A stretch of 64,000 bases of DNA from an uncultured Clostridia bacterium (GTDB taxonomy: Bacteria; Bacillota; Clostridia; Christensenellales; Borkfalkiaceae): assembly GCA_944327625.1 (NCBI GenBank), contig CALVHL010000007.1:1-64000 (forward strand), read 5' to 3'. The notes under the pieces were generated by a model that did not search any database, was not told the DNA's origin, and saw nothing but the letters and a program-made list of their open reading frames with translations. Positions within the stretch are counted from its first letter, which is position 1. Each line of letters starts with the position of its first letter. Of this stretch, positions 8,721 to 38,921 are shown piece by piece. Both the position numbers and the translations under genes were made by a program.

Positions 8721-9908
8721 ATGGAAATATTTGAAGAACTTAAAGAAAGAGGGCTCATCGCCCAGGTAACCGACGAAAAGGAGATAAAAGAACTCATAAA
8801 CGGCGGCGGCGCGCGCTTCTATATCGGGTTCGATCCGACGGCAGACAGCCTGCACGTCGGGCACTTTATGGCGCTCTGCCTGATGAAAAGGTTGCAGATG
8901 GCGGGCAATAAACCCGTAGTGCTCATCGGCGGCGGCACGGGCTACGTCGGCGATCCGTCGGGCAGAACGGATATGCGCTCCATGCTGACTCCCGAGATGA
9001 TAGAGCATAACTGTGCCTGCTTCAAAAAACAGATGGAGCGGTTTATCGAGTTCGGCGACGACAAGGCTATTATGGTCAACAACGCCGACTGGCTGCTGAA
9101 ACTCAACTACGTCGAGGTATTGAGGGAGGTCGGCGCCTGCTTTTCGGTCAATAATATGCTCCGCGCGGAGTGCTACAAACAGCGCATGGAAAAGGGGCTG
9201 AGCTTCCTCGAATTTAACTATATGATAATGCAGGCGTACGACTTCTATCACCTCAACGGTCAGTACGGCTGCAATATGCAGTTCGGCGGCGACGACCAGT
9301 GGTCGAATATGCTTGCCGGCACCGAGCTCATCAGGAAAAAGACGGGCAAGGATGCCTATGCCATGACCATAACCCTGCTGCTCAACAGCGAGGGCAAGAA
9401 GATGGGCAAGACGGCGAAGGGCGCGGTCTGGCTGGACGAAAATAAGACCACCCCTTACGAGTTCTATCAGTATTGGCGCAACGTCGACGACGCGGACGTG
9501 ATGAAGTGCATAAAGATGCTGACCTTCATTCCCATGTCTGAAATACGCGAAATGGAGAATTGGGACGCCTCCCGCATAAACGAAAAGAAGGAAATTCTCG
9601 CCTACGAGCTCACTAAACTCGTTCACGGCGAGGAGAAGGCGCAGGCGGCAATGGCGCAGGCCAAGGCGGCGTTCGGCGGCTCGTTCGACGACCTGCCCGA
9701 AACCGAAATAAGCGTCGAAAACCCCACCGTGCTGTCCGTATTGGTCGCGGCAAAGCTGTGCGCGTCCAACGGCGAGGCAAGGCGGCTCATTCAGCAGGGC
9801 GGCGTGTCGCTCAACGATAAAAAGGTGACGGACATCAATGCGCCCGTCATAAGCGGCGACATTCTGCACAAGGGCAAGAAAATTCATTTAAGGATAAAGC
9901 TCGTCTGA
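8721..9908 (+). CDS. tyrS: Tyrosyl-tRNA synthetase
   Basis: A 395-residue class I aminoacyl-tRNA synthetase that charges tRNA-Tyr. Seen: the HIGH-type motif HVGHFMA near residue 45, the KMSKS-type loop KMGKTAKG near 226, and a C-terminal S4 RNA-binding domain ([20 protein letters not shown]). The length fits TyrRS. I start at ATG 8721, preceded by AAGGTG; an upstream in-frame extension to 8664 has no ribosome site. No T-box leader is visible in the 67-base gap after sigK, unlike many Firmicutes tyrS genes; a weak TTGCAA/TATACT promoter lies there. Confidence 0.95.
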
Positions 9909-9912
9909 AATT

Positions 9913-10542
9913 ATGCAGGGTTATCTGTCGGTGTCCGGCGAGCTCGAAACCGTAAAAGTCATAGAAAAATCTAAATTCATAACCCGCTCGCGGCACGTCG
10001 AGGGCGAGGAGGAGGCAAGGGCGTTCGTCGCCTCGGTCGCGGCGGCGCACAGGGACGCAACGCACAACTGCTATGCCTATATCGCCGACGACAAGGGCAA
10101 TTTCCTGCGCTTTTCGGACGACGGCGAGCCGCAGGGCACGGCGGGCATGCCCATGCTCGAAGTCATAAAAAATAACAACCTCAGACAGACGGCGGTCGTC
10201 GTCACGCGCTATTTCGGCGGCATAAAGCTGGGCGCGGGCGGGCTGGTCAGGGCATATTCCGGCAGCGTCGCCGAAAATCTCGCCGCGGCGGTCAGGGTGA
10301 ATTATCTGCCCTGCGCAGAGAGCGAATATATCGTCGACTATCCGCTCGTCGACGCTATGATGCGGTATTGCGGCGAAAACGACTGTCAGGTCAAGGATAC
10401 GCAGTACGCCGACAGAGCGGTGTTCACGATAGCCGTCAAAAAAGAGGCGGAAGAGGGCTTCAACGCCGCCCTCGTCAACCGTCTGAACGGCAGGGTGGGC
10501 ATAATAAAAAAACGGGAGTATATGTTCCCGTTCAAAGTATAA
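9913..10542 (+). CDS. YigZ/IMPACT family protein
   Basis: A 209-residue member of the YigZ/IMPACT (UPF0029) family. The N-terminal domain carries the conserved DDGEPQGTAGMPMLEV and TRYFGGIKLGAGGLVRAYS segments; the C-terminal half is the DUF1949-type ferredoxin-like domain. It begins four bases after the tyrS stop codon and is almost certainly co-transcribed with it. Biochemical role in bacteria is not settled; a link to translation regulation is known for the eukaryotic relative IMPACT only. Confidence 0.9.
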   Translation: MQGYLSVSGELETVKVIEKSKFITRSRHVEGEEEARAFVASVAAAHRDATHNCYAYIADDKGNFLRFSDDGEPQGTAGMPMLEVIKNNNLRQTAVVVTRYFGGIKLGAGGLVRAYSGSVAENLAAAVRVNYLPCAESEYIVDYPLVDAMMRYCGENDCQVKDTQYADRAVFTIAVKKEAEEGFNAALVNRLNGRVGIIKKREYMFPFKV

Positions 10543-10545
10543 AAA

Positions 10546-10583
10546 CCGCATTGTCTGCGGCATATATGCGGGGCAATTGCAGA
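10546..10583 (+). repeat. Dispersed hairpin repeat, copy 2
   Basis: Contains the perfect family core GCGGCATATATGCGGGGC (10557-10574) followed by AATTGC. A local stem CCGCA-TTGTC-TGCGG precedes it. Starts four bases after the YigZ stop codon. Confidence 0.8.
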
Positions 10584-10615
10584 TATTCCCCCGCAGAAAT
10601 AAATGAGATAATCAA

Positions 10616-10645
10616 AAAACCCCGACTTCAAATGTCGGGGTTTTT
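10616..10645. terminator. Bidirectional terminator
   Basis: AAAACCCCGAC / GTCGGGGTTTTT stem with a seven-base loop between the convergent YigZ (plus) and DUF1349 (minus) genes; T-runs on both strands. Confidence 0.9.
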
Positions 10646-10649
10646 AAGT

Positions 10650-11249
10650 TCAGTCGGGCTGTTGTCCGTCGTGCGGCAGCCACTTGCAGTCGGTCAGTTC
10701 AAAGTCGGTGAAAGTTGCGAGAAACGAAGAGTTTTCGGGGCTGCACGCATAGACGCCGAGGCGTATTTTGCCCGCGCCGCCGAAGAGGTGACAGATACGC
10801 ATCTGCCTGTAATTTATGCCGTCGTCCGAGCACTCTATGAGGAAGTCGTCCTCCCTGCGGCTCAGTCTGTACCACATTTCGCGCGTGCCGGCGCCGATGT
10901 CGGTCGTCGCCCAGTCGGAGAAGCCGTTGTTGGTCACTACGCTGCCGAGGCGGGCTTTTTTGTCGTCCTCGTACTCAACGGAAGCCTTCAACCAGTTCTC
11001 GCTGTCGAGGTAGAGTATTATGCCGCACTGGTCGAAGCGCTGCGCGGGCGCAAACTGCGTCCTGACTGAAAACGAAAAGTATCTCTCGTCGGTGTCGAAT
11101 TGCAGCATTGGCGCGTTGTCGTTGCGGAAATGGTAATATGTGCGTTGCCACAAATCGGTGTGCGGTGCGGTTATGATTTCAACTTTATTCCAGTCGAGGG
11201 AATAACTCTCGGGCTCGTTGAGCCACTGCATTGACTTTATGTCTAACAT
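10650..11249 (-). CDS. DUF1349 domain protein
   Basis: A 199-residue protein of the DUF1349 family (concanavalin/jelly-roll-like fold). Recognised by the segments FRNDNAPMLQFDTDERYFSF, QCGIILYLDSENWLKASVEY and the late HLFGGAGKIRLGVYACSP. No signal peptide or membrane segment, so cytoplasmic. Its start codon overlaps the ilvE stop (TAATG), so it is the second gene of a two-gene operon with ilvE. Related proteins are often annotated as glycan-related, but no catalytic assignment can be made here. Confidence 0.85.
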   Translation of the reverse strand: MLDIKSMQWLNEPESYSLDWNKVEIITAPHTDLWQRTYYHFRNDNAPMLQFDTDERYFSFSVRTQFAPAQRFDQCGIILYLDSENWLKASVEYEDDKKARLGSVVTNNGFSDWATTDIGAGTREMWYRLSRREDDFLIECSDDGINYRQMRICHLFGGAGKIRLGVYACSPENSSFLATFTDFELTDCKWLPHDGQQPD

Positions 11250-12277
11250 TATGCCTTAGCTATCTCCCTCAGCCAGCCTTCGGGCGCCTCTATTCTGCCC
11301 ATCTGTATGCCTGTCAGAGTGTCGTAAAGTTTCTTGGTTATTTCGCCCATATTCTCCATTCCGGAGGGCAGGCAGATCTCTTTTCCGTGGTCGACTATCT
11401 TGCCTACGGGCGAGATGACCGCCGCCGTGCCGCAGAGCCCGCACTCGGCAAAGTCCTTGACCTCGTCGAACCTTACAGGTCTGTGCTCGACGGTAAGTCC
11501 GAGATATTTTTCCGCCACGTAGCAGAGCGAGCGGCGGGTAATCGAGGGCAGTATGCTGTCCGATTTGGGCGTCACCACCTTGCCGTCCTTGGTTATGAAC
11601 AGGAAGTTTGCGCCGCCCGTCTCCTCGACGAAAGTTCGTGTGCCCGCGTCGAGATACATATTCTCGTCAAATCCCTTGTTGTGCGCGTCGACAATAGCGT
11701 GCAGGCTCATCGCATAGTTGAGCCCCGCCTTGATATGCCCCGTGCCGTGAGGGGCAGCCCTGTCGAAGTCCGAAACCCTTATGGTTATGGGTTTTACGCC
11801 GCCCTTGAAGTAGGGGCCGACGGGCGTTGCGAACAGCCTGAACTCGTACTCCGTCGCGGGCTTTACGCCGATGACGGGGGAGGAGCCGTACATATACGGT
11901 CTGAGGTAGAGCGTCGCGCCGCTGCCGTAGGGCGGAACGTAGTCCTTATTCGCGCTGACCACCTTGTCGACGGCTTCGAGGAACATTCCGTCGGGCAGGG
12001 CGGGCATTTCCAGCCTTGCCGCAGACTGGTTCATTCTCTCGGCGTTGAGGTCGGGGCGGAAGGTGACTATTCTGCCGTCCTCGGTGGTGTATGCTTTAAG
12101 CCCTTCAAACGCCGTCTGCGCGTATTGCAGCACGCCCGCACATTCGGATATTGTCACTTTGTCCTCGGCGGTCAGTCCGCCCTTGTCCCAACCCTTGCCG
12201 TCATAGTGCGCGACAAAGCGCCAGGGCGTCTTAATATAGCCGAAGCCTATATTTTTCCAGTCAATATCGACAGCCAT
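11249..12277 (-). CDS. ilvE: Branched-chain amino acid aminotransferase
   Basis: A 342-residue fold-type IV PLP enzyme that interconverts valine, leucine and isoleucine with their 2-oxo acids. Seen: ECAGVLQYAQTAFEGLKAY, the PLP-lysine region HIKAGLNYAMSLHA, and YLDAGTRTFVEETGGANFLF. Length fits the 340-360 residue class II BCAT group. A strong promoter and an AAGAAGG ribosome site lie upstream. It is transcribed divergently from recX and overlaps the DUF1349 gene by one base. No T-box or leader peptide was seen in its short leader. Confidence 0.93.
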   Translation of the reverse strand: MAVDIDWKNIGFGYIKTPWRFVAHYDGKGWDKGGLTAEDKVTISECAGVLQYAQTAFEGLKAYTTEDGRIVTFRPDLNAERMNQSAARLEMPALPDGMFLEAVDKVVSANKDYVPPYGSGATLYLRPYMYGSSPVIGVKPATEYEFRLFATPVGPYFKGGVKPITIRVSDFDRAAPHGTGHIKAGLNYAMSLHAIVDAHNKGFDENMYLDAGTRTFVEETGGANFLFITKDGKVVTPKSDSILPSITRRSLCYVAEKYLGLTVEHRPVRFDEVKDFAECGLCGTAAVISPVGKIVDHGKEICLPSGMENMGEITKKLYDTLTGIQMGRIEAPEGWLREIAKA

Positions 12278-12309
12278 AAAATTACCTTCTTAAAATGATA
12301 TTATATAAT

Positions 12310-12338
12310 ATTATACCGCGGCGGCGGGCGTATGTCAA
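12310..12338 (-). promoter_or_regulatory. Promoter of ilvE
   Basis: On the minus strand TTGACA, 17-base spacer, TATAAT: perfect consensus hexamers. Confidence 0.85.
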
Positions 12339-12347
12339 TAATCGTCA

Positions 12348-12376
12348 TTGACAAAGTGCCGCAGAAATGATAGAAT
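12348..12376 (+). promoter_or_regulatory. Promoter of recX-birA-nnr
   Basis: TTGACA (12348-12353), 17-base spacer, TAGAAT (12371-12376), divergent from the ilvE promoter ten bases away. Confidence 0.8.
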
Positions 12377-12403
12377 ATTTTTGATTTTAAAGGAGAAATT
12401 GCG

Positions 12404-13018
12404 TTGGCGGAGATAACTTCGATAGAGCCGCAGGTCAAGGACAAGCGGCGGTGCAACATATACGTGGATGGCAGATTTTACTGCGGAATGAAGCTCGAGG
12501 TGGCTATAAAAAACCGCCTCAAAGTCGGGCAGAGCATAGACAGGGCAGAGCTCGACAGGCTGCAACTCGAAACCGAGAAGCTCGAGGCGACGGACAAGGC
12601 TATGACGCACCTCTCGGCTTCGATGAAGACCGAAAGGCAGATGCGCGACTTCCTCGGAAAAAAGGGCTATGTTCCCGCCGTCTGCGACTATGTCATCGAC
12701 AAGCTCAAAGGCTACGGCTATCTCGGCGACGAGGCGTATTGCCGCGCCTACGTCGAGGGCATATCGGGCAAGAGCCGCCGCGCGATCGCGGCGGAGCTCA
12801 TGAAGCGCGGCGTCGACGGCGGAACGGTGGAGAGGGTGCTCTCCGACTATTCGGACGACGAGGACGAAATACTTGCGCTCCTCAAAAAATACCTCCGCGG
12901 CAAGCCCGCGACGGAGGAGAATATATATAAGGGCTGCCGCTATCTCATATCCAGGGGGTATGAATACGACAAAGTAAAGGCGGCCTGCGAGAGGCTGAAT
13001 GAAGACGAAGATAATTGA
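12404..13018 (+). CDS. recX: Regulatory protein RecX
   Basis: A 204-residue RecX-type protein made of tandem three-helix repeats (SMKTERQMRDFLGKKGY, KSRRAIAAELMKRGVD, YKGCRYLISRGYEYDKVK). RecX binds RecA filaments and limits recombination. Translation starts at TTG 12404, eight bases after AAGGAG; no ATG fits. recA is not in the window. The gene overlaps birA by 20 bases in another frame, so the three genes recX-birA-nnr form a tight operon, although their functions are unrelated. Confidence 0.88.
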   Translation: MAEITSIEPQVKDKRRCNIYVDGRFYCGMKLEVAIKNRLKVGQSIDRAELDRLQLETEKLEATDKAMTHLSASMKTERQMRDFLGKKGYVPAVCDYVIDKLKGYGYLGDEAYCRAYVEGISGKSRRAIAAELMKRGVDGGTVERVLSDYSDDEDEILALLKKYLRGKPATEENIYKGCRYLISRGYEYDKVKAACERLNEDEDN

Positions 13019-31952: not shown

Positions 31953-32078
31953 ACGCCCGCTCCGAGCAATGCAATGGCAAATTGTCAAACAAATTGAAAT
32001 ATTTTGAAAGAGAGAAGTTGAATATATCGACGCTTTTATATCACATAATACATTTTTGTAATTAATATGTGCCAGTGA

Positions 32079-32300
32079 GTGCTCATTACTAAAGTAATTA
32101 ATATATTGGTAGTAATATCTTATCTGGTTTGTGTTGTCTTGATTCCAAGATCATGGTTTGAGATAGAAGGGAAAATTATTGTTACAGCGATAGGATATTG
32201 CTCTTTGTTTTTGGGTGGCTTAATGGTTTTATTAAAAGTTTGCCTGTCTTTAAAGAAAAGGAAAATAAAGAACAGCCGTGATAAGGCTCAGTCCCATTAA
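32079..32300 (+). CDS. Small two- to three-pass membrane protein
   Basis: A 73-residue AT-rich reading frame with membrane segments VINILVVISYLVCVVLIP and VTAIGYCSLFLGGLMVLL and a basic end KKRKIKNSRDKAQSH. The start would be GTG 32079 without a ribosome site; the true start is uncertain. No family recognised. The base composition differs strongly from hemW, so it is probably acquired DNA. Confidence 0.45.
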   Translation: MLITKVINILVVISYLVCVVLIPRSWFEIEGKIIVTAIGYCSLFLGGLMVLLKVCLSLKKRKIKNSRDKAQSH

Positions 32301-32313
32301 TATGTGTTAATGA

Positions 32314-32436
32314 TTATTTTGTGTTTGGGCTAATGTCAAAAAGCAGCAGTCGACGATTTTTGATCTGGAAGTGGCTGATTATGGTGAAGATATTTTTATT
32401 GCGATAATGAATTTTCTTAAAATAAGAGGGATGTAA
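32314..32436 (+). pseudogene. C-terminal fragment of an unidentified gene
   Basis: An open stretch of 40 codons without a start (VKKQQSTIFDLEVADYGEDI and IAIMNFLKIRGM) ending four bases before the next gene. Its acidic/hydrophobic make-up looks protein-like, and it may be the tail of a gene whose front is missing. Speculative. Confidence 0.3.
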
Positions 32437-32439
32437 ACT

Positions 32440-32781
32440 TTGGATTTTATTTGTGCGATGATTTTATCTTGCTGCCTGTTTTTTGCGGTGGATATTGGTA
32501 CCGTGTATAATTTTTATTGTTTATGGATCAAGAAGAACGGATTGTTACAATGTTTTCCGCATTGGGAAAATACAAATAAGAATTATATATGGTGGATTAC
32601 GTGGAGCATAATATTATTTACTAATTTACTTACATTTATCATCGTTATTATATTTTGCTTTCCCTTTGTTGAAGGAGTGCTGTTCGGATTTATAATAATT
32701 TATCCCGCTGCCACAATATTGATAGGCGTAATATATTTTATTGTCAAACACATTTTAATCATAAAACAGAAAAAGTGTTAA
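32440..32781 (+). CDS. Small three-pass membrane protein
   Basis: A 113-residue AT-rich gene with segments FICAMILSCCLFFAVDIGTV, ITWSIILFTNLLTFIIVIIF and VLFGFIIIYPAATILIGVIY, and a basic end IIKQKKC. TTG 32440 is preceded by AGAGGGATG. Unrecognised. With the preceding frame and fragment it forms an AT-rich islet between hemW and the mgtA leader. Confidence 0.55.
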   Translation: MDFICAMILSCCLFFAVDIGTVYNFYCLWIKKNGLLQCFPHWENTNKNYIWWITWSIILFTNLLTFIIVIIFCFPFVEGVLFGFIIIYPAATILIGVIYFIVKHILIIKQKKC

Positions 32782-32889
32782 TATGAAGAAGTCATCGGAG
32801 AGTAATAGCTTATGGCTTCCTTTTACCCTATATTGACACCTTTTGCGCGGTCGTACTTTCACTAATACGGCGACGGCGTTATGTAAAGC

Positions 32890-32932
32890 GGGCGGAGCAT
32901 CGGTATGACCGATGCTCCGCCCTGACGTTTTT
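32890..32932 (+). terminator. Terminator of the AT-rich islet
   Basis: GGGCGGAGCATCGGT / ACCGATGCTCCGCCC perfect 15-base-pair stem with an ATG loop, followed by TGACGTTTTT. Confidence 0.85.
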
Positions 32933-32970
32933 CCGCCCCCGACCGAGCGGCAGGGGCGGAAAAATTTTTT
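32928..32970. terminator. Second, bidirectional terminator
   Basis: TTTTTCCGCCCC / GGGGCGGAAAAA followed by six T, immediately after the first terminator. Confidence 0.8.
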
Positions 32971-32979
32971 GCTGAGGGC

Positions 32980-33009
32980 TTGACAAATGCGTTGCCGTCG
33001 GTTTATAAT
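32980..33009 (+). promoter_or_regulatory. Promoter of the M-box/mgtA transcript
   Basis: TTGACA (32980-32985), 18-base spacer, TATAAT (33004-33009), just before the M-box. Confidence 0.8.
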
Positions 33010-33012
33010 GCA

Positions 33013-33165
33013 GTCAGGAAAACGGTAGGTGAGGCTATTGCAGGGATACGGACTGTTGCCGCAAAGCGAAGGAGACTTCGTTCGCAGGTGTGAACAGGTT
33101 GCATCGGTTCAAGGTGCAGCATAACACAGTTACATCGCCCTTCAAAGTTAAAACTCGGACGGATA
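33013..33165 (+). promoter_or_regulatory. Mg2+-sensing M-box riboswitch (ykoK leader)
   Basis: Shows the conserved M-box blocks in order: GGTAGGTGAGGCT (about 33024-33036), GGGATACGGACTGTTGCCGC, ACAGGTTGCATCGGTTCAAG then GTGCAGC, and AAAACTCGGACGG. The following gene is a Mg2+-type P-type ATPase, the standard M-box target; high Mg2+ should lead to termination. Confidence 0.9.
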
Positions 33166-33188
33166 ACAGGAAAATACCTATAATTTCT

Positions 33189-33427: not shown

Positions 33428-33556
33428 ATGAACGCAGGCAACGACAGTTACCGAAGTACGGCAAATAAAGTTGAATTTACGCGCAGCCATGCTCTGTCGC
33501 TGTCGGCGTCAGCATTGCGCGTGGCTTCATGCCGTGCTTCCTTCAATCCCGGTTAA
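33428..33556 (+). CDS. 42-codon upstream reading frame in the mgtA leader
   Basis: ATG 33428 sits seven bases after a perfect AGGAGG (33415-33420) and runs 42 codons (MNAGNDSYRSTANKVEFTRS at the start, ending SCRASFNPG). Its stop codon TAA is part of the mgtA ribosome site (TAAGGAGG), so translation of the two is coupled. The composition is basic, Ser/Ala-rich and not membrane-like. It could be a regulatory leader peptide in the manner of enterobacterial mgtL, or a small protein partner of MgtA. No family recognised. Confidence 0.65.
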   Translation: MNAGNDSYRSTANKVEFTRSHALSLSASALRVASCRASFNPG

Positions 33557-33570
33557 GGAGGTACAGAGCA

Positions 33571-36285
33571 ATGAAATTGAAAGTTAAAGAAGTAAGGGGC
33601 GGCGCAGGGCGCAAGCTGAGCGCGAGGACGATGCGCAACGCCCTCGGCAGGGAGACTGCGGAGAGAATGAGGTATTCCGCCGCGCACTCCGTCGACAAGA
33701 CCTATAAGCTGATCGGCTGCGACAGGGGCGGGCTGGACGCCGAGAAAGTCGCGCTCATGCGCGAACGCTACGGCGCAAACGTCATACGCGTCGCCGAGAG
33801 CAAGTCGGCTTTAAGGCGGCTTGCCGAGGCGTTCGTCAACCCGTTTTCGGCGATACTGTTCGCGCTGGCGATAATTTCGCTGTTCACGGACGTAATATTT
33901 GCCGCCGCCGAGGACAAAAATCCCGCAACGGTCATAATAATCGCGGCAATGCTGCTCATCTCAGGCACTCTGCGCTTTATCGAGGACAGTCGCTCGGACA
34001 GCGCGGTGCGCAGACTTGCGGGAATGGTCAGCACTACCGCAACCGTCGAAAGGGAGGAGGGAGTGTGCGAAATTCCCCTTTCCGAAGTGGTCGTCGGCGA
34101 CATAGTCCGCCTGTCCGCGGGCGATATGCTCCCCGCCGACATTAGGATAATAGCGGCGAAAGATCTGTTCGTCAGCCAGTCCGCGCTGACGGGCGAGAGC
34201 GAGCCCGTCGAAAAGACGTCGCTCGTCGTCAGGGACAGCCGCGCCCTGACCGAGTGCGACAATCTCGCATTCATGGGCAGCAACGTCATAAGCGGCAGCG
34301 GTACGGGCATAGTGCTCGCCGCGGGCGGCGGCACCATGTTCGGCAGCATAGCGGGTACGCTTTCGGTCAAGCCGCCCAAGACCGAGTTTGAAAAGGGCAT
34401 GAGCAGGGTTTCGTGGCTGCTCATAAAGTTCATGCTCGTAATGGTGCCGATAGTGCTGATATTAAACGGCCTCCTGAAGGGCGATTGGGCGGAGGCGCTG
34501 TTATTCGCCGTGTCCGTGGCGGTGGGGCTCACCCCCGAGATGTTGCCGATGATAGTCACTTCGGCGATGGCTAAGGGCTCGGTTGCGATGAGCCGCAAGA
34601 AGGTAATAGTCAAGCGCATGCACGCAATACAGAACCTCGGCGCGATAGACATACTCTGCACGGACAAGACGGGCACGCTCACGCAGGACAGGGTAGTGCT
34701 CGAACGCCACCTCAACGTGCACGGCGAGGAGGACGACAGGGTGCTCCGCCATGCGTGGCTGAACAGCTATTTCCAGACGGGGCTCAAAAACCTCATAGAC
34801 GTCGCCGTAATAGAGCGGTTCAACGAGGTGTTCGGCGCAGGAATGGAACAGAGCTATATAAAGACGGACGAAATTCCCTTCGATTTCACCCGCCGCAGAA
34901 TGAGCGTTATCATCTCCGACAGGGCGGGCAAGACGCAGCTCATAACCAAGGGCGCGGTGGAGGAAATGCTCGGCTGCTGCGACTTTGCCGAATACGGCGG
35001 CAAGGTCGAGAAGATGACGGAAGATTTGCGCCGCTTCATAATATCCAAGGCGGACGAACTCAATACCGAGGGAATGAGGGTTATCGCCGTCGCGCAGAAG
35101 AAGGTGCGCGGCGAGGCGGGCTCGTTCTCGGTAGAGGACGAGAGCGGCATGGTGCTCATGGGCTATCTCGCCTTTCTCGATCCGCCCAAGCCGACGGCGG
35201 CTAAGGCGATAGCCGAACTCGGCAGGCGCGGGGTTAAGGTAAAGGTGCTCACGGGTGACAGCGAAAAGGTGACGGCGGCAATCTGCGGACAGGTCGGACT
35301 ATGCGCCGACGAAATAGTGCTCGGCTCTCAGCTCGACGGGCTGGACGACGGGGAACTCGCCGCGCTCGCAGAGAGGGTTTCGGTATTTGCCAAGCTCTCG
35401 CCCGCACAGAAAGCGCGCGTGGTCGGCGTATTGCGCGACGCGGGGCATACGGTCGGGTATATGGGCGACGGAATAAACGACGCTTCGGCAATGGTGCAGG
35501 CGGATGTCGGAATATCCGTCGATACCGCCGTCGACATAGCCAAGGAGGCGGCCGACATAATACTGCTCGAAAAGGATCTGACCGTGCTCGAAGACGGCAT
35601 AACCGAGGGCAGAAAGACCTACGCCAACATGATAAAGTACGTCAAGATGACCGTCGCGTCCAACTTCGGCAATATGCTCTCCGTGCTCGCGGCGAGCGCG
35701 TTCCTTCCCTTCCTGCCCATGGCGGCAATACAACTCGTGCTGCTCAATCTCATATACGACGTATCATGCTCGGCAATTCCGTGGGACAACGTCGACGAGC
35801 AGTATCTCATGGTGCCCAGAAAGTGGGAGATAAAGTCGATAACGCGCTTCATGCTCAGTTTCGGGCCCGTCAGTTCGCTGTTCGACGTCGTGACTTTCGC
35901 CGCGCTGTACTTCATAATCTGCCCCGCAGCCTGCGGCGGCGGGTATGCCGCGCTGAGCGAGGAGATGAGGGAGACTTTCGTTGCCGTATTCCGCGCGGGG
36001 TGGTTTATCGAGTCCATGTGGACGCAGACTCTGATAATTCACTTTATCCGCACGTCAGAGCTGCCCTTCATAAGAAGCCGCGCTTCGTGGCAGGTCACGG
36101 CGCTCACGGCGGCGGGCATAGCCGTGCTGACGGCAATACCCTTTACTCCGCTCGGCGAAGTGATAGGGCTGAGCGCCCCGCCCGCGCAGTATTTCATATT
36201 GCTTATCGCCGTGGTTGCGGCATATATGGCGCTCGTCACCCTCGTAAAATATCTCTACGTCAGGCGTTTCGGCGAACTGTTATAG
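33571..36285 (+). CDS. mgtA: Magnesium-translocating P-type ATPase (MgtA/MgtB type)
   Basis: A 904-residue P3B-type ATPase that imports Mg2+. Seen: an N-terminal cation-ATPase domain, two membrane segments, the actuator motif LTGESEPVEK, the phosphorylation motif DKTGTLT (Asp about 365), MGDGINDA hinge, and C-terminal membrane segments (NFGNMLSVLAASAFLPFLPM). Start at ATG 33571, nine bases after the ribosome site shared with the upstream reading-frame stop; the frame extends upstream to 33529 but without a ribosome site. Controlled by the M-box and a second leader stage, so expected to be expressed when Mg2+ is low. Confidence 0.95.
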   Translation: MKLKVKEVRGGAGRKLSARTMRNALGRETAERMRYSAAHSVDKTYKLIGCDRGGLDAEKVALMRERYGANVIRVAESKSALRRLAEAFVNPFSAILFALAIISLFTDVIFAAAEDKNPATVIIIAAMLLISGTLRFIEDSRSDSAVRRLAGMVSTTATVEREEGVCEIPLSEVVVGDIVRLSAGDMLPADIRIIAAKDLFVSQSALTGESEPVEKTSLVVRDSRALTECDNLAFMGSNVISGSGTGIVLAAGGGTMFGSIAGTLSVKPPKTEFEKGMSRVSWLLIKFMLVMVPIVLILNGLLKGDWAEALLFAVSVAVGLTPEMLPMIVTSAMAKGSVAMSRKKVIVKRMHAIQNLGAIDILCTDKTGTLTQDRVVLERHLNVHGEEDDRVLRHAWLNSYFQTGLKNLIDVAVIERFNEVFGAGMEQSYIKTDEIPFDFTRRRMSVIISDRAGKTQLITKGAVEEMLGCCDFAEYGGKVEKMTEDLRRFIISKADELNTEGMRVIAVAQKKVRGEAGSFSVEDESGMVLMGYLAFLDPPKPTAAKAIAELGRRGVKVKVLTGDSEKVTAAICGQVGLCADEIVLGSQLDGLDDGELAALAERVSVFAKLSPAQKARVVGVLRDAGHTVGYMGDGINDASAMVQADVGISVDTAVDIAKEAADIILLEKDLTVLEDGITEGRKTYANMIKYVKMTVASNFGNMLSVLAASAFLPFLPMAAIQLVLLNLIYDVSCSAIPWDNVDEQYLMVPRKWEIKSITRFMLSFGPVSSLFDVVTFAALYFIICPAACGGGYAALSEEMRETFVAVFRAGWFIESMWTQTLIIHFIRTSELPFIRSRASWQVTALTAAGIAVLTAIPFTPLGEVIGLSAPPAQYFILLIAVVAAYMALVTLVKYLYVRRFGELL

Positions 36286-36461: not shown

Positions 36462-36512
36462 ATGCCATAACGGGAGCCAGATTTACAATCGGGCTCCCGT
36501 TATGGCATTTAA
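36462..36512. terminator. Bidirectional terminator between mgtA and the TIR gene
   Basis: A perfect 17-base-pair stem, ATGCCATAACGGGAGCC with GGCTCCCGTTATGGCAT, and a 13-base loop; T-runs on both strands (TTTAAATTAAAATT on plus, ATTTATTCACCC on minus). Confidence 0.8.
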
Positions 36513-36549: not shown

Positions 36550-37902
36550 TTATAGAGAGTTGGTTATTTCCTTACATTCCTGAATAATTTTCTCAATCGC
36601 GTCCTTATCTTCAAGATTTATATCGGGGCTTACGCTGCATTGCTGCGAGATAGTATATATAAGTTGCGGGTTGAGAAACTGGCTCATATTTCTATGACAA
36701 TGATAGACAAGCTGGTTTACTTCAAAGCCGCTCATATCGGGTTTCCTTTTAATTGCGAGTATGTCTTTATAGGTCTGAATTTTCTCATCGTTGAGGAGGG
36801 GCGACCAGGAATTTATAAGCCCTATCATGCGGTCAACTGCCATGGAAATGCTCATAAGTATGGGTACGAAAGGCTTTTCAAAATTATTCATCTGTTTGAT
36901 TTCGAAATAGCAGTTATCGCTTTCAAAGAAGTTTTCCGAAAGAAAGACGAAAGCGGAATGACAGTTTTCGTGGTTGAGCGCAGCGTGAACATTATCCTTC
37001 CAGCCATCGCTTCCGGGGGTGGAGGATGTAATGTTTTTAAAATCGAGATAATAATTTATGCCAAGTTTATCAAGGAACAGGCATATTTCATAAACCCTTG
37101 CGCTGTTGGCGGCCGTATAGCATATAAACGAAAAGGGCTTAGAGAAATCGCACTTGCTCAGATAGGGGAGAATATCGCTTCCGTCAGATTCCATGTTTTT
37201 GAGCTTGCGGAGATCTATATTGATGCACTCTGCAAGAAGTTTTATAAAATTCTCGTCAAGCTCCGTGATGGGGCGAGGGGGATCTTCATAAGTATCTCCC
37301 GTATTCAGCCAGATGAGCTGACCGTCGCCGTTATAGACTTTGCCGATGACGAGCGGAACGGTTATTTTTTTGCCTGTCTGCGGATTAGTTATCAGGGTAT
37401 CGAAAAATATTTCTTTTTCGTGCAGTTTGTCCGTGTCGCCCCAACATATTTCGCCGTCGGCAAGTAAAAAATTGCTGGTAAGTGAGGAAAATGCGTGTAC
37501 TTGCTTGCAGTAGGCTGTTTTTGAATAGGGAACGTCCGTCTCTCTTTGAAAGTTGTTTACCTGATAGTTAAACATCTGCTGCAAAGTAATGTTTCTCGTC
37601 CTGCGATAAATTATGTCGTGGGTAACGATTAGCTTTTTCCCCGAATCGACGAATTCGTCAAGGCGGTCGCCTATTTTTTCTCTTTCCTTTTCGTCGGAGG
37701 AGAACTTTGTCACATCGGTCGATTGCAGCATTATTATGTCGTATTGCGAAAGATCGAATTCGTCGTGGCTGATTTGCCATATATCTTCGATAATTTCAAA
37801 TTCGCATTGCGGGCAGTAAGCGCTAACACGTTTAAGAAGGTGTCGCGAATAACTTTTTTTAAAATCAGCCCAATATAGTATTTTCAGATTGTTATTATCC
37901 AT
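36550..37902 (-). CDS. TIR domain protein with an N-terminal ThuA/amidotransferase-like domain
   Basis: A 450-residue cytoplasmic protein. Residues about 5-220 look like a ThuA/class I amidotransferase-type Rossmann fold (LKILYWADF, YDIIMLQSTDV, LDEFVDSGKKLIVTHDIIYR, GQLIWLNTGD); this call is moderate. Residues about 255-350 are a TIR domain: KPFSFICYTAANSARVYEIC, LDKLGINYYLDFKNI, HSAFVFLSENFFESDNCYFE, KPFVPILM. The SxxCxxE motif (Ser328, Cys331, Glu334) matches the catalytic-glutamate signature of NAD-cleaving TIR domains. About 100 further residues follow. It lies 19 bases after the GDPD gene, and both are more AT-rich than the core genome, suggesting horizontal gain. Defence or signalling role is inferred. 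Confidence 0.75.
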   Translation of the reverse strand: MDNNNLKILYWADFKKSYSRHLLKRVSAYCPQCEFEIIEDIWQISHDEFDLSQYDIIMLQSTDVTKFSSDEKEREKIGDRLDEFVDSGKKLIVTHDIIYRRTRNITLQQMFNYQVNNFQRETDVPYSKTAYCKQVHAFSSLTSNFLLADGEICWGDTDKLHEKEIFFDTLITNPQTGKKITVPLVIGKVYNGDGQLIWLNTGDTYEDPPRPITELDENFIKLLAECINIDLRKLKNMESDGSDILPYLSKCDFSKPFSFICYTAANSARVYEICLFLDKLGINYYLDFKNITSSTPGSDGWKDNVHAALNHENCHSAFVFLSENFFESDNCYFEIKQMNNFEKPFVPILMSISMAVDRMIGLINSWSPLLNDEKIQTYKDILAIKRKPDMSGFEVNQLVYHCHRNMSQFLNPQLIYTISQQCSVSPDINLEDKDAIEKIIQECKEITNSL

Positions 37903-37921
37903 GGTATCGCCTTACCGAAAG

Positions 37922-38671
37922 TTATTTTTTGTCGGGGATAATGCGTTCAAAGATGATATTGTCGGCAATATCCTTTGCCAGTGCTTCCTTTTCCTTTGAA
38001 TTTATCGTCCAGGTAAGTATTTTAAGCCCGCGTTTTTTTTGCTTTTCTACATATTTGTTTGGCAGATATATTATGTCGTAGGAAATAAAGTCTGCGTGAA
38101 TAAATCTGGCAACAGTCAGCGATTTGAGGGCATATTTGACTAATTTATTTTTTGGTTTCAGGTCATAAGAACTTAAAAAACCTGCCGAATACTTGTCTGT
38201 ATGCGTCTTTAAATATTTGACTGCGGCAGGATGAAACGACTGCAAGGCGACCATATCGGGATAGGGGTAGGTTTCAAGCAATTCAAGCAATGCGTCTGCC
38301 TGATTGTGGTCGAATACGCTTCCGAATTTCAGCTCTATGAGCAGGGGAACTTTGCCGTCGATAAGGTCAAGCAGATCTTTTAAAAGCGGAATGCGCTGCC
38401 CGTCTTTGAGGGGATAATTTTTAAGTTCTTCCGACGAAAGATTTTCAACGATTGCATTTTTGCCCGTCACTCTTTCAAGATTGCTGTCGTGTACGACTGC
38501 GAGTTGTCCGTCGGTTGTAAGATGGACGTCAATTTCTATCGCGTAATTATTTGCTATTGCCCTTCTGAAAGCTTCCATAGAGTTTTCGGATATTTCGGGC
38601 GTGTGCAAGCCGCGGTGAGCAATGGCGATATTTATAAAGTTATCATTAAGAGCTATTTTTTCAGGCTTCAT
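37922..38671 (-). CDS. Glycerophosphodiester phosphodiesterase family protein
   Basis: A 249-residue GDPD/UgpQ-type TIM-barrel protein with intact catalytic residues: HRG (His19, Arg20), the metal pair EID (Glu46, Asp48) and VVHD (His61), then LLIELKFGS and a C-terminal KILTWTINSKEK. No signal peptide or membrane segment, so it acts in the cytoplasm. The family hydrolyses glycerophosphodiesters to glycerol-3-phosphate and an alcohol. Here it is the first gene of a two-gene operon with a TIR protein, which is not a metabolic neighbourhood. AGAGG precedes the start. Confidence 0.88.
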   Translation of the reverse strand: MKPEKIALNDNFINIAIAHRGLHTPEISENSMEAFRRAIANNYAIEIDVHLTTDGQLAVVHDSNLERVTGKNAIVENLSSEELKNYPLKDGQRIPLLKDLLDLIDGKVPLLIELKFGSVFDHNQADALLELLETYPYPDMVALQSFHPAAVKYLKTHTDKYSAGFLSSYDLKPKNKLVKYALKSLTVARFIHADFISYDIIYLPNKYVEKQKKRGLKILTWTINSKEKEALAKDIADNIIFERIIPDKK

Positions 38672-38697
38672 TGCGCAATAACCTCTTTTTTGTTGAA

Positions 38698-38726
38698 TTT
38701 ATAAGTATTTTAACAGATTATGTCAG
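38698..38726 (-). promoter_or_regulatory. Promoter of the GDPD-TIR operon
   Basis: Minus strand: CTGACA, 17-base spacer, TATAAA, 27 bases before the GDPD start. Confidence 0.6.
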
Positions 38727-38921
38727 AAAAATCAATATTATAGATAAAATTTTGCCGATCATTGTCTTAATATCTTGTGTGCTCATAAATCGGCGGGAAT
38801 TTGTCTGAACAGATAATCAGTTTATTCCGCCGACGGTAACCGTTCGGGGCGAGGCGGCGGGGTTGCGCTCTGCACCGTTTTAAATTCCGCGGGGAGGGCG
38901 AATAAAAATTGTATATGGCAC

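Follow-up and report, generated by a model that had tools for sequence, protein, structure and literature searches.

Organisation and composition of the gene pair

On the minus strand of the window (the whole 64,000-nucleotide stretch of clostridial DNA analysed here), a gene for a GDPD-family phosphodiesterase is followed, after a gap of 19 bp, by a gene for a 450-residue protein in which a ThuA-like domain is joined to a TIR domain. The ORF list and translations confirm both reading frames, their order and their 19-base spacing as described in an initial annotation of the sequence. The features of the locus are:

37922..38671, minus strand: first gene, GDPD-family phosphodiesterase of 249 aa (Pfam PF03009, residue check)
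36550..37902, minus strand: second gene, ThuA-TIR fusion protein of 450 aa (ORF and translation)
37222..37881, minus strand: ThuA/class-I-GATase-like domain, residues about 8–227, a candidate sensor (PF06283 matches of relatives, hhalign)
36850..37128, minus strand: TIR domain, residues 259–351, with S328-x-x-C331-x-x-E334 and the putative NADase glutamate E334 (PF13676 match, residue check)
36462..36508, minus strand: 17-bp perfect inverted repeat directly 3′ of the TIR gene (folding energy -39.5 kcal/mol with z -7.9)
38707..38735, minus strand: promoter-like site upstream of the GDPD gene, extended -10, TTGATT-17-TAAAAT (not above chance)

Both genes have a GC content of 41%, with GC3 values of 0.44 (GDPD) and 0.49 (ThuA-TIR) compared with a median GC3 of 0.71 across the window ORFs of at least 200 aa; the AT-richness noted at first reading is thus evident. 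The case for a promoter of its own and for isolation by terminators is weaker than first proposed. The 10 promoter-like matches lie close to the chance level of 6.5 +/- 2.2 in shuffled sequences, and a sequence scan around the pair found no T-run terminator, but the perfect hairpin 3′ of the TIR gene is probably a transcription terminator or marks the mRNA 3′ end.

The neighbours of the pair in the window are housekeeping genes, with a P-type ATPase (33529–36285; Pfam) on one side and a pair of gyrase-type genes from 39048 onwards (identified by reading the sequence) on the other. An M-box magnesium riboswitch (Rfam RF00380, 82 bits) at 33014–33171 on the plus strand lies upstream of the ATPase gene at 33529, suggesting that the latter encodes a magnesium-regulated transporter. 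An AT-rich stretch at 32000–33000 (35.5% GC) contains an ORF (32440–32781, plus strand) for a hydrophobic protein of 113 aa, which has no match in Pfam, PHROGs or PADLOC.

Domains of the two proteins

The first protein matches PF03009 with E=3.4e-30, and the catalytic residues H19, R20, E46, D48 and H61 are all intact, four of them (His19, Glu46, Asp48 and His61) at the positions originally reported. By this profile match and its HR...E-x-D...H residues it can be assigned to the GDPD family (PF03009). Hydrophobicity analysis reveals no transmembrane segment, and the nearest solved structure is 2pz0 (E=6.8e-20). In possessing all five catalytic residues the protein is like other cytosolic bacterial GDPDs, with orthologues in the genus being 51–66% identical; its sequence has no feature that distinguishes it within the family, and only its partner gene is unusual.

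The N-terminus of the window ThuA-TIR protein itself has no Pfam match. The ThuA-like character first ascribed to it is not directly detectable in the window sequence, but is supported by way of its relatives. The domain is 29–38% identical to domains in four other genomes (G531, G1054, G1023 and G1006). Relatives' domains match PF06283 above the curated cut-off of 33.4 bits (G1054, 38.4 bits and G531, 37.1 bits; E=2e-9 and 5e-9), with that of G1023 reaching 25.6 bits, and a profile-profile comparison (hhalign) of the family with bona fide ThuA proteins gives a match probability of 94%. The window domain carries the motifs TDVTKFS, THDIIYRRTRN, DGEICWG and LNTGD, and TDVTK, HDIIYRRTRN, GEICWG and an N-x-GD ending are strongly conserved among the family domains. 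The fold family of this domain is that of the ThuA proteins (PF06283) and the GATase-like domains of glycosidases, from which it differs in its own conserved THDIIYRRTRN and DGEICWG motifs, in its fusion to a TIR domain or membrane segment, and in its pairing with a GDPD. Single-sequence AlphaFold models were of low confidence (mean pLDDT 40.7 for the full ThuA-TIR protein and 43.6 for the N-terminal domain). Three weak matches to the ThuA profile (L061–L063) were rejected as family members, being ordinary ThuA proteins, and were used as negative controls. Two of these loci encode near-identical ThuA-NUDIX fusions (PF06283 and PF00293; L062 1069–2097 and L063 815–1843); in L063 a short-chain-dehydrogenase-like gene lies beside the fusion gene.

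The C-terminal TIR domain with an SxxCxxE signature is confirmed, residues 259–351 matching TIR_2 (PF13676) above the curated cut-off (E=1.5e-8) and S328, C331 and E334 all being present. It is a divergent TIR domain, with weak matches to MyD88 TIR structures in the PDB (E about 0.2), and could serve as a scaffold.

Relatives of the ThuA-like domain and their GDPD neighbours

No full-length relative of the ThuA-TIR protein was found in 61 close relatives, in 297 genomes of the order, or in genome, viral, phage and plasmid collections; pattern scans of genome contigs for the TIR protein gave no match, and none of the other genus members searched carries it. A 399-genome sample of the phylum yielded one relative of the N-terminal domain (G531; 32% identity, E=3.4e-28), and use of the window and G531 alignment as query recovered three more (G1054, G1023 and G1006). 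The ThuA-like domain family is therefore rare, being seen in five genomes including that of the window. Follow-up searches at order and genus level from G1054 and G1023 gave no further members, and relatives were absent from the viral, phage and plasmid collections. The sample is small: the five family members come from one collection sample, and among them one is decayed and another lies at the end of a contig.

The loci of three relatives can be read on both sides:

G1054 (L055): GDPD gene at 8848–9600 and membrane-segment-ThuA gene at 9590–10450, the two overlapping by 11 bp
G531 (L049): GDPD gene at 11922–12662 and membrane-segment-ThuA gene at 9124–10005, on the same strand
G1023 (L056): TIR-ThuA gene followed by a GDPD remnant, the reverse of the order in the window

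With the window included, a GDPD gene adjoins the ThuA-effector gene in all four assessable loci, with an IS insertion between the two in G531; G1006 was left out because its domain lies at a contig end. The same GDPD profile that recovered every module GDPD found none within about 1.5 kb in 19 TIR-only control loci, nor in the three ThuA-only loci (control loci were about 2–3.5 kb long). Among the assessable loci a ThuA-effector gene was never seen without a GDPD gene. The co-occurrence search that the initial annotation had proposed thus came out in favour of a functional pair, an idea supported both by the GDPD neighbour of every readable ThuA-domain relative and by the swappable TIR or membrane part. 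In each of the four genomes (window, G531, G1054 and G1023) the module is AT-rich relative to its own surroundings, as is seen for acquired genes.

The G1023 locus is decayed, with damage to the start of the TIR domain and to the junction between the genes. In G531, transposase fragments occupy the interval between the GDPD and membrane-segment-ThuA genes (L049 10006–11921), and an IS110-like gene lies on the other side. The G1054 module is flanked by genes for CAAX-protease-like membrane proteins (L055 6940–7686, identified by reading the sequence, and 10504–11115, Rce1-like by Pfam).

An exchangeable putative executor

The part attached to the ThuA-like domain varies between members: it is a C-terminal TIR_2 domain in the window and an N-terminal SARM1-like TIR domain in G1023, and in G531 and G1054 hydrophobicity analysis shows a single hydrophobic (membrane) segment at the N-terminus. 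As judged from these architectures, a constant ThuA-like domain whose TIR or membrane part can be exchanged fits an effector module, although the single membrane segment could be a mere anchor. The G1023 TIR domain matches SARM1 structures with E=6e-23, and its catalytic-glutamate motif aligns with DWVHKE of SARM1; it is a bacterial example of a SARM1-like TIR domain, albeit within a decayed gene (L056 9286–9700). NADase activity of the TIR members is plausible, given the intact glutamate and the SARM1-like G1023 member. The window and G1023 TIR domains barely align, though their ThuA-like domains are 36–38% identical, and the two TIR domains were therefore probably joined to the ThuA-like domain independently. 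This suggests a sensor whose output can be exchanged.

Origin of the GDPD partner

Orthologues of the window GDPD (51–66% identity) are present in about 8 of 61 genomes of the genus. In the seven genus loci that were read they sit elsewhere, among genes for rubrerythrin, Fur-type, DegV, phosphoglycerate mutase and uracil-DNA glycosylase proteins (names by reading the sequence), and neither the window neighbour genes nor a ThuA-TIR gene is found there; the GDPD is thus common in the genus without any ThuA-effector. In at least four of these seven loci (L037, L038, L040 and L041) the GDPD gene is directly preceded by a gene for a TMEM164-family membrane protein, the two possibly forming a glycerophosphodiester or lipid-remodelling operon; in animals, TMEM164 acts as a phospholipid acyltransferase (PMC10474074).

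In a phylogenetic tree, which has long branches and a rough bootstrap, the window GDPD groups with the genus GDPDs (support 100/99.9), and a common clade for the module GDPDs is rejected (p-AU 0.00026). On this tree, either the pair had more than one origin or a module gave rise to the genus GDPDs; on both views it is ordinary GDPD activity that would count. Since the GDPDs of the pairs form no single clade and that of the window lies among genus GDPDs, the pair probably came together more than once, around an ordinary GDPD activity, which the effector accordingly appears to need. A GDPD acting as a dedicated effector or as a specialised signal enzyme, as had been envisaged, is less likely than was stated, because the window enzyme falls in the ordinary clade of the genus. 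The GC content of the window GDPD gene (41%) is below that of its orthologues (49–59%), which suggests that it arrived alongside the TIR gene from a relative with a higher AT content.

Proposed mechanism and alternatives

Because of the GDPD pairing in all four assessable loci, the clean controls, the swapping of executors and the conserved ThuA motifs, we tentatively favour, at somewhat less than even confidence, an undescribed two-gene effector module in which a ThuA sensor, restrained by the GDPD, controls a TIR NADase or a membrane part. We infer a ligand, a direction of control, an NADase activity and a defence role for the module along the following lines. The constant core would be the cytosolic GDPD and the ThuA-like domain, with a variable executor attached to the latter. 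The ThuA-like domain would bind a phosphorylated metabolite of GDPD chemistry (a glycerophosphodiester or a related lipid-headgroup compound) through the conserved His-Asp-x-x-x-Arg-Arg, Glu-x-Cys-Trp-Gly and Asn-x-Gly-Asp residues. In a healthy cell, the co-expressed GDPD would clear this compound, such that the effector is held off; build-up of the compound would be the trigger, as when a phage infects, the membrane comes under attack, phospholipases act or the GDPD is lost. In the TIR version the domains would then assemble and degrade NAD+, whilst the membrane version would act at the membrane, each resulting in growth arrest. A restraining role is favoured for the GDPD because its gene is the first in three of the four loci, because the genes overlap in G1054, because the distribution is asymmetric (the GDPD is found without the effector, whilst the effector is not seen without the GDPD), and because the paired enzymes do not form a specialised clade.

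The same enzyme might instead make the signal. On infection, the GDPD would release or cyclise a phosphodiester product, which would bind the ThuA-like domain and turn on the TIR or membrane part, in the manner of the CD-NTase and STING of CBASS, with parallels in TIR-STING and TM-STING (PMC10732462). The conserved pairing and the swapping of effectors would fit this arrangement too. We nonetheless regard it as unlikely, since the paired GDPDs are no specialised clade, since the same enzyme occurs alone in a housekeeping position beside a TMEM164-family gene, and since a constitutive product would hold the effector on. Some GDPD-superfamily enzymes do make cyclic phosphates, which counts in its favour.

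A role outside defence likewise appears unlikely. Here, the ThuA-like domain would take part in the use of glycerophosphodiesters, as an enzyme or as a regulator, and the TIR domain or membrane segment would do no more than oligomerise or localise it, without killing. ThuA proteins are tied to sugar metabolism (by their Pfam name), the single membrane segment resembles an anchor, and the GDPDs of the genus lie in a lipid-type context after TMEM164-family genes, whose animal counterpart acylates phospholipids (PMC10474074); however, TIR domains with an intact putative catalytic glutamate have been joined independently at opposite ends of the ThuA-like domain, and genes that are extremely rare, AT-rich, and decayed or interrupted by an IS do not resemble metabolic genes. 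Chance adjacency, in which a TIR gene landed beside an unrelated GDPD gene, is rejected as very improbable: although the window GDPD lies in the genus's own clade and other genus members searched lack the TIR protein, the pairing is repeated in three unrelated genomes with none in 19 TIR-only and three ThuA-only controls, and, at no more than a few GDPD genes in about 2,000 genes (~0.3% per adjacency), three more coincidences have a probability of ~1 in 10^7 by rough estimate.

Returning to the GDPD-restrained effector, it is doubtful, though conceivable, that the module is a novel immune or cell-death system in which a GDPD controls a ThuA-like receptor with interchangeable executors via a lipid-headgroup-type metabolite, and which surveys membrane-lipid breakdown rather than nucleotides. 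Most of the bacterial TIR effectors described so far respond to nucleotide signals or phage proteins, and such a system, if real, would be the first hint of bacteria gating a suicide-type effector by phospholipid-headgroup metabolism. The exchange of a TIR for a membrane executor on one sensor would then be the logic of bacterial STING carried out with unrelated parts. The SARM1-like TIR domain of G1023 opens an immediate NADase test, and two genes suffice for testing the hypothesis.

Relation to known defence systems

Sensor-gated TIR and membrane effectors are known; what is new here is an as yet undescribed sensor (ThuA-like) and partner (GDPD). The module resembles the bacterial STING effectors of CBASS (TIR-STING and TM-STING), in which one sensor domain carries either a TIR NADase or a membrane segment and the neighbouring gene encodes a phosphodiester-chemistry enzyme (PMC10732462), but its sensor is ThuA/GATase-like, its partner is a GDPD rather than a CD-NTase, and the TIR domain may be at either end; no CD-NTase, STING or other nucleotide-sensing match was obtained for the pair with Pfam or PADLOC, and membership of CBASS was rejected. 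In Cat1 (CARF-TIR; PMC12162218) and the TIR-SAVED effectors a ligand-binding domain likewise gates a TIR NADase, whereas the module has no CARF or SAVED domain in a Pfam scan and no adjoining type III CRISPR or CD-NTase gene. Thoeris (ThsA/ThsB) shares a TIR domain within a small two-gene system, but here there is no ThsA effector (of SIR2-SLOG or macro type), and TIR domain and sensor are in one protein; the window proteins have no Thoeris match in PADLOC or NCBIfam, their neighbours being GDPD, P-type ATPase and gyrase-type subunit genes, and Thoeris was likewise set aside. The gene order and the 11-bp overlap in G1054 would also be compatible with a toxin-antitoxin system. A search of the open-licence literature turned up no account of a ThuA-TIR or GDPD defence system, in agreement with the earlier statement that the pairing had no known precedent.

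The architecture of the module, together with its rarity, its composition and its decay, makes a role in defence plausible. The context of the window pair does not establish the anti-phage role first suggested for it: PADLOC and NCBIfam defence models do not match the pair, its neighbours are the housekeeping genes described above, and the locus has neither a defence island around it nor a phage-induced context. The proposed survey for nearby defence genes found a candidate in one of the four loci, that of G1023. This gene is a PDC-S14 candidate phage-defence gene (L056 12460–13218; PADLOC, E=6e-77), located about 1.5 kb from the module.
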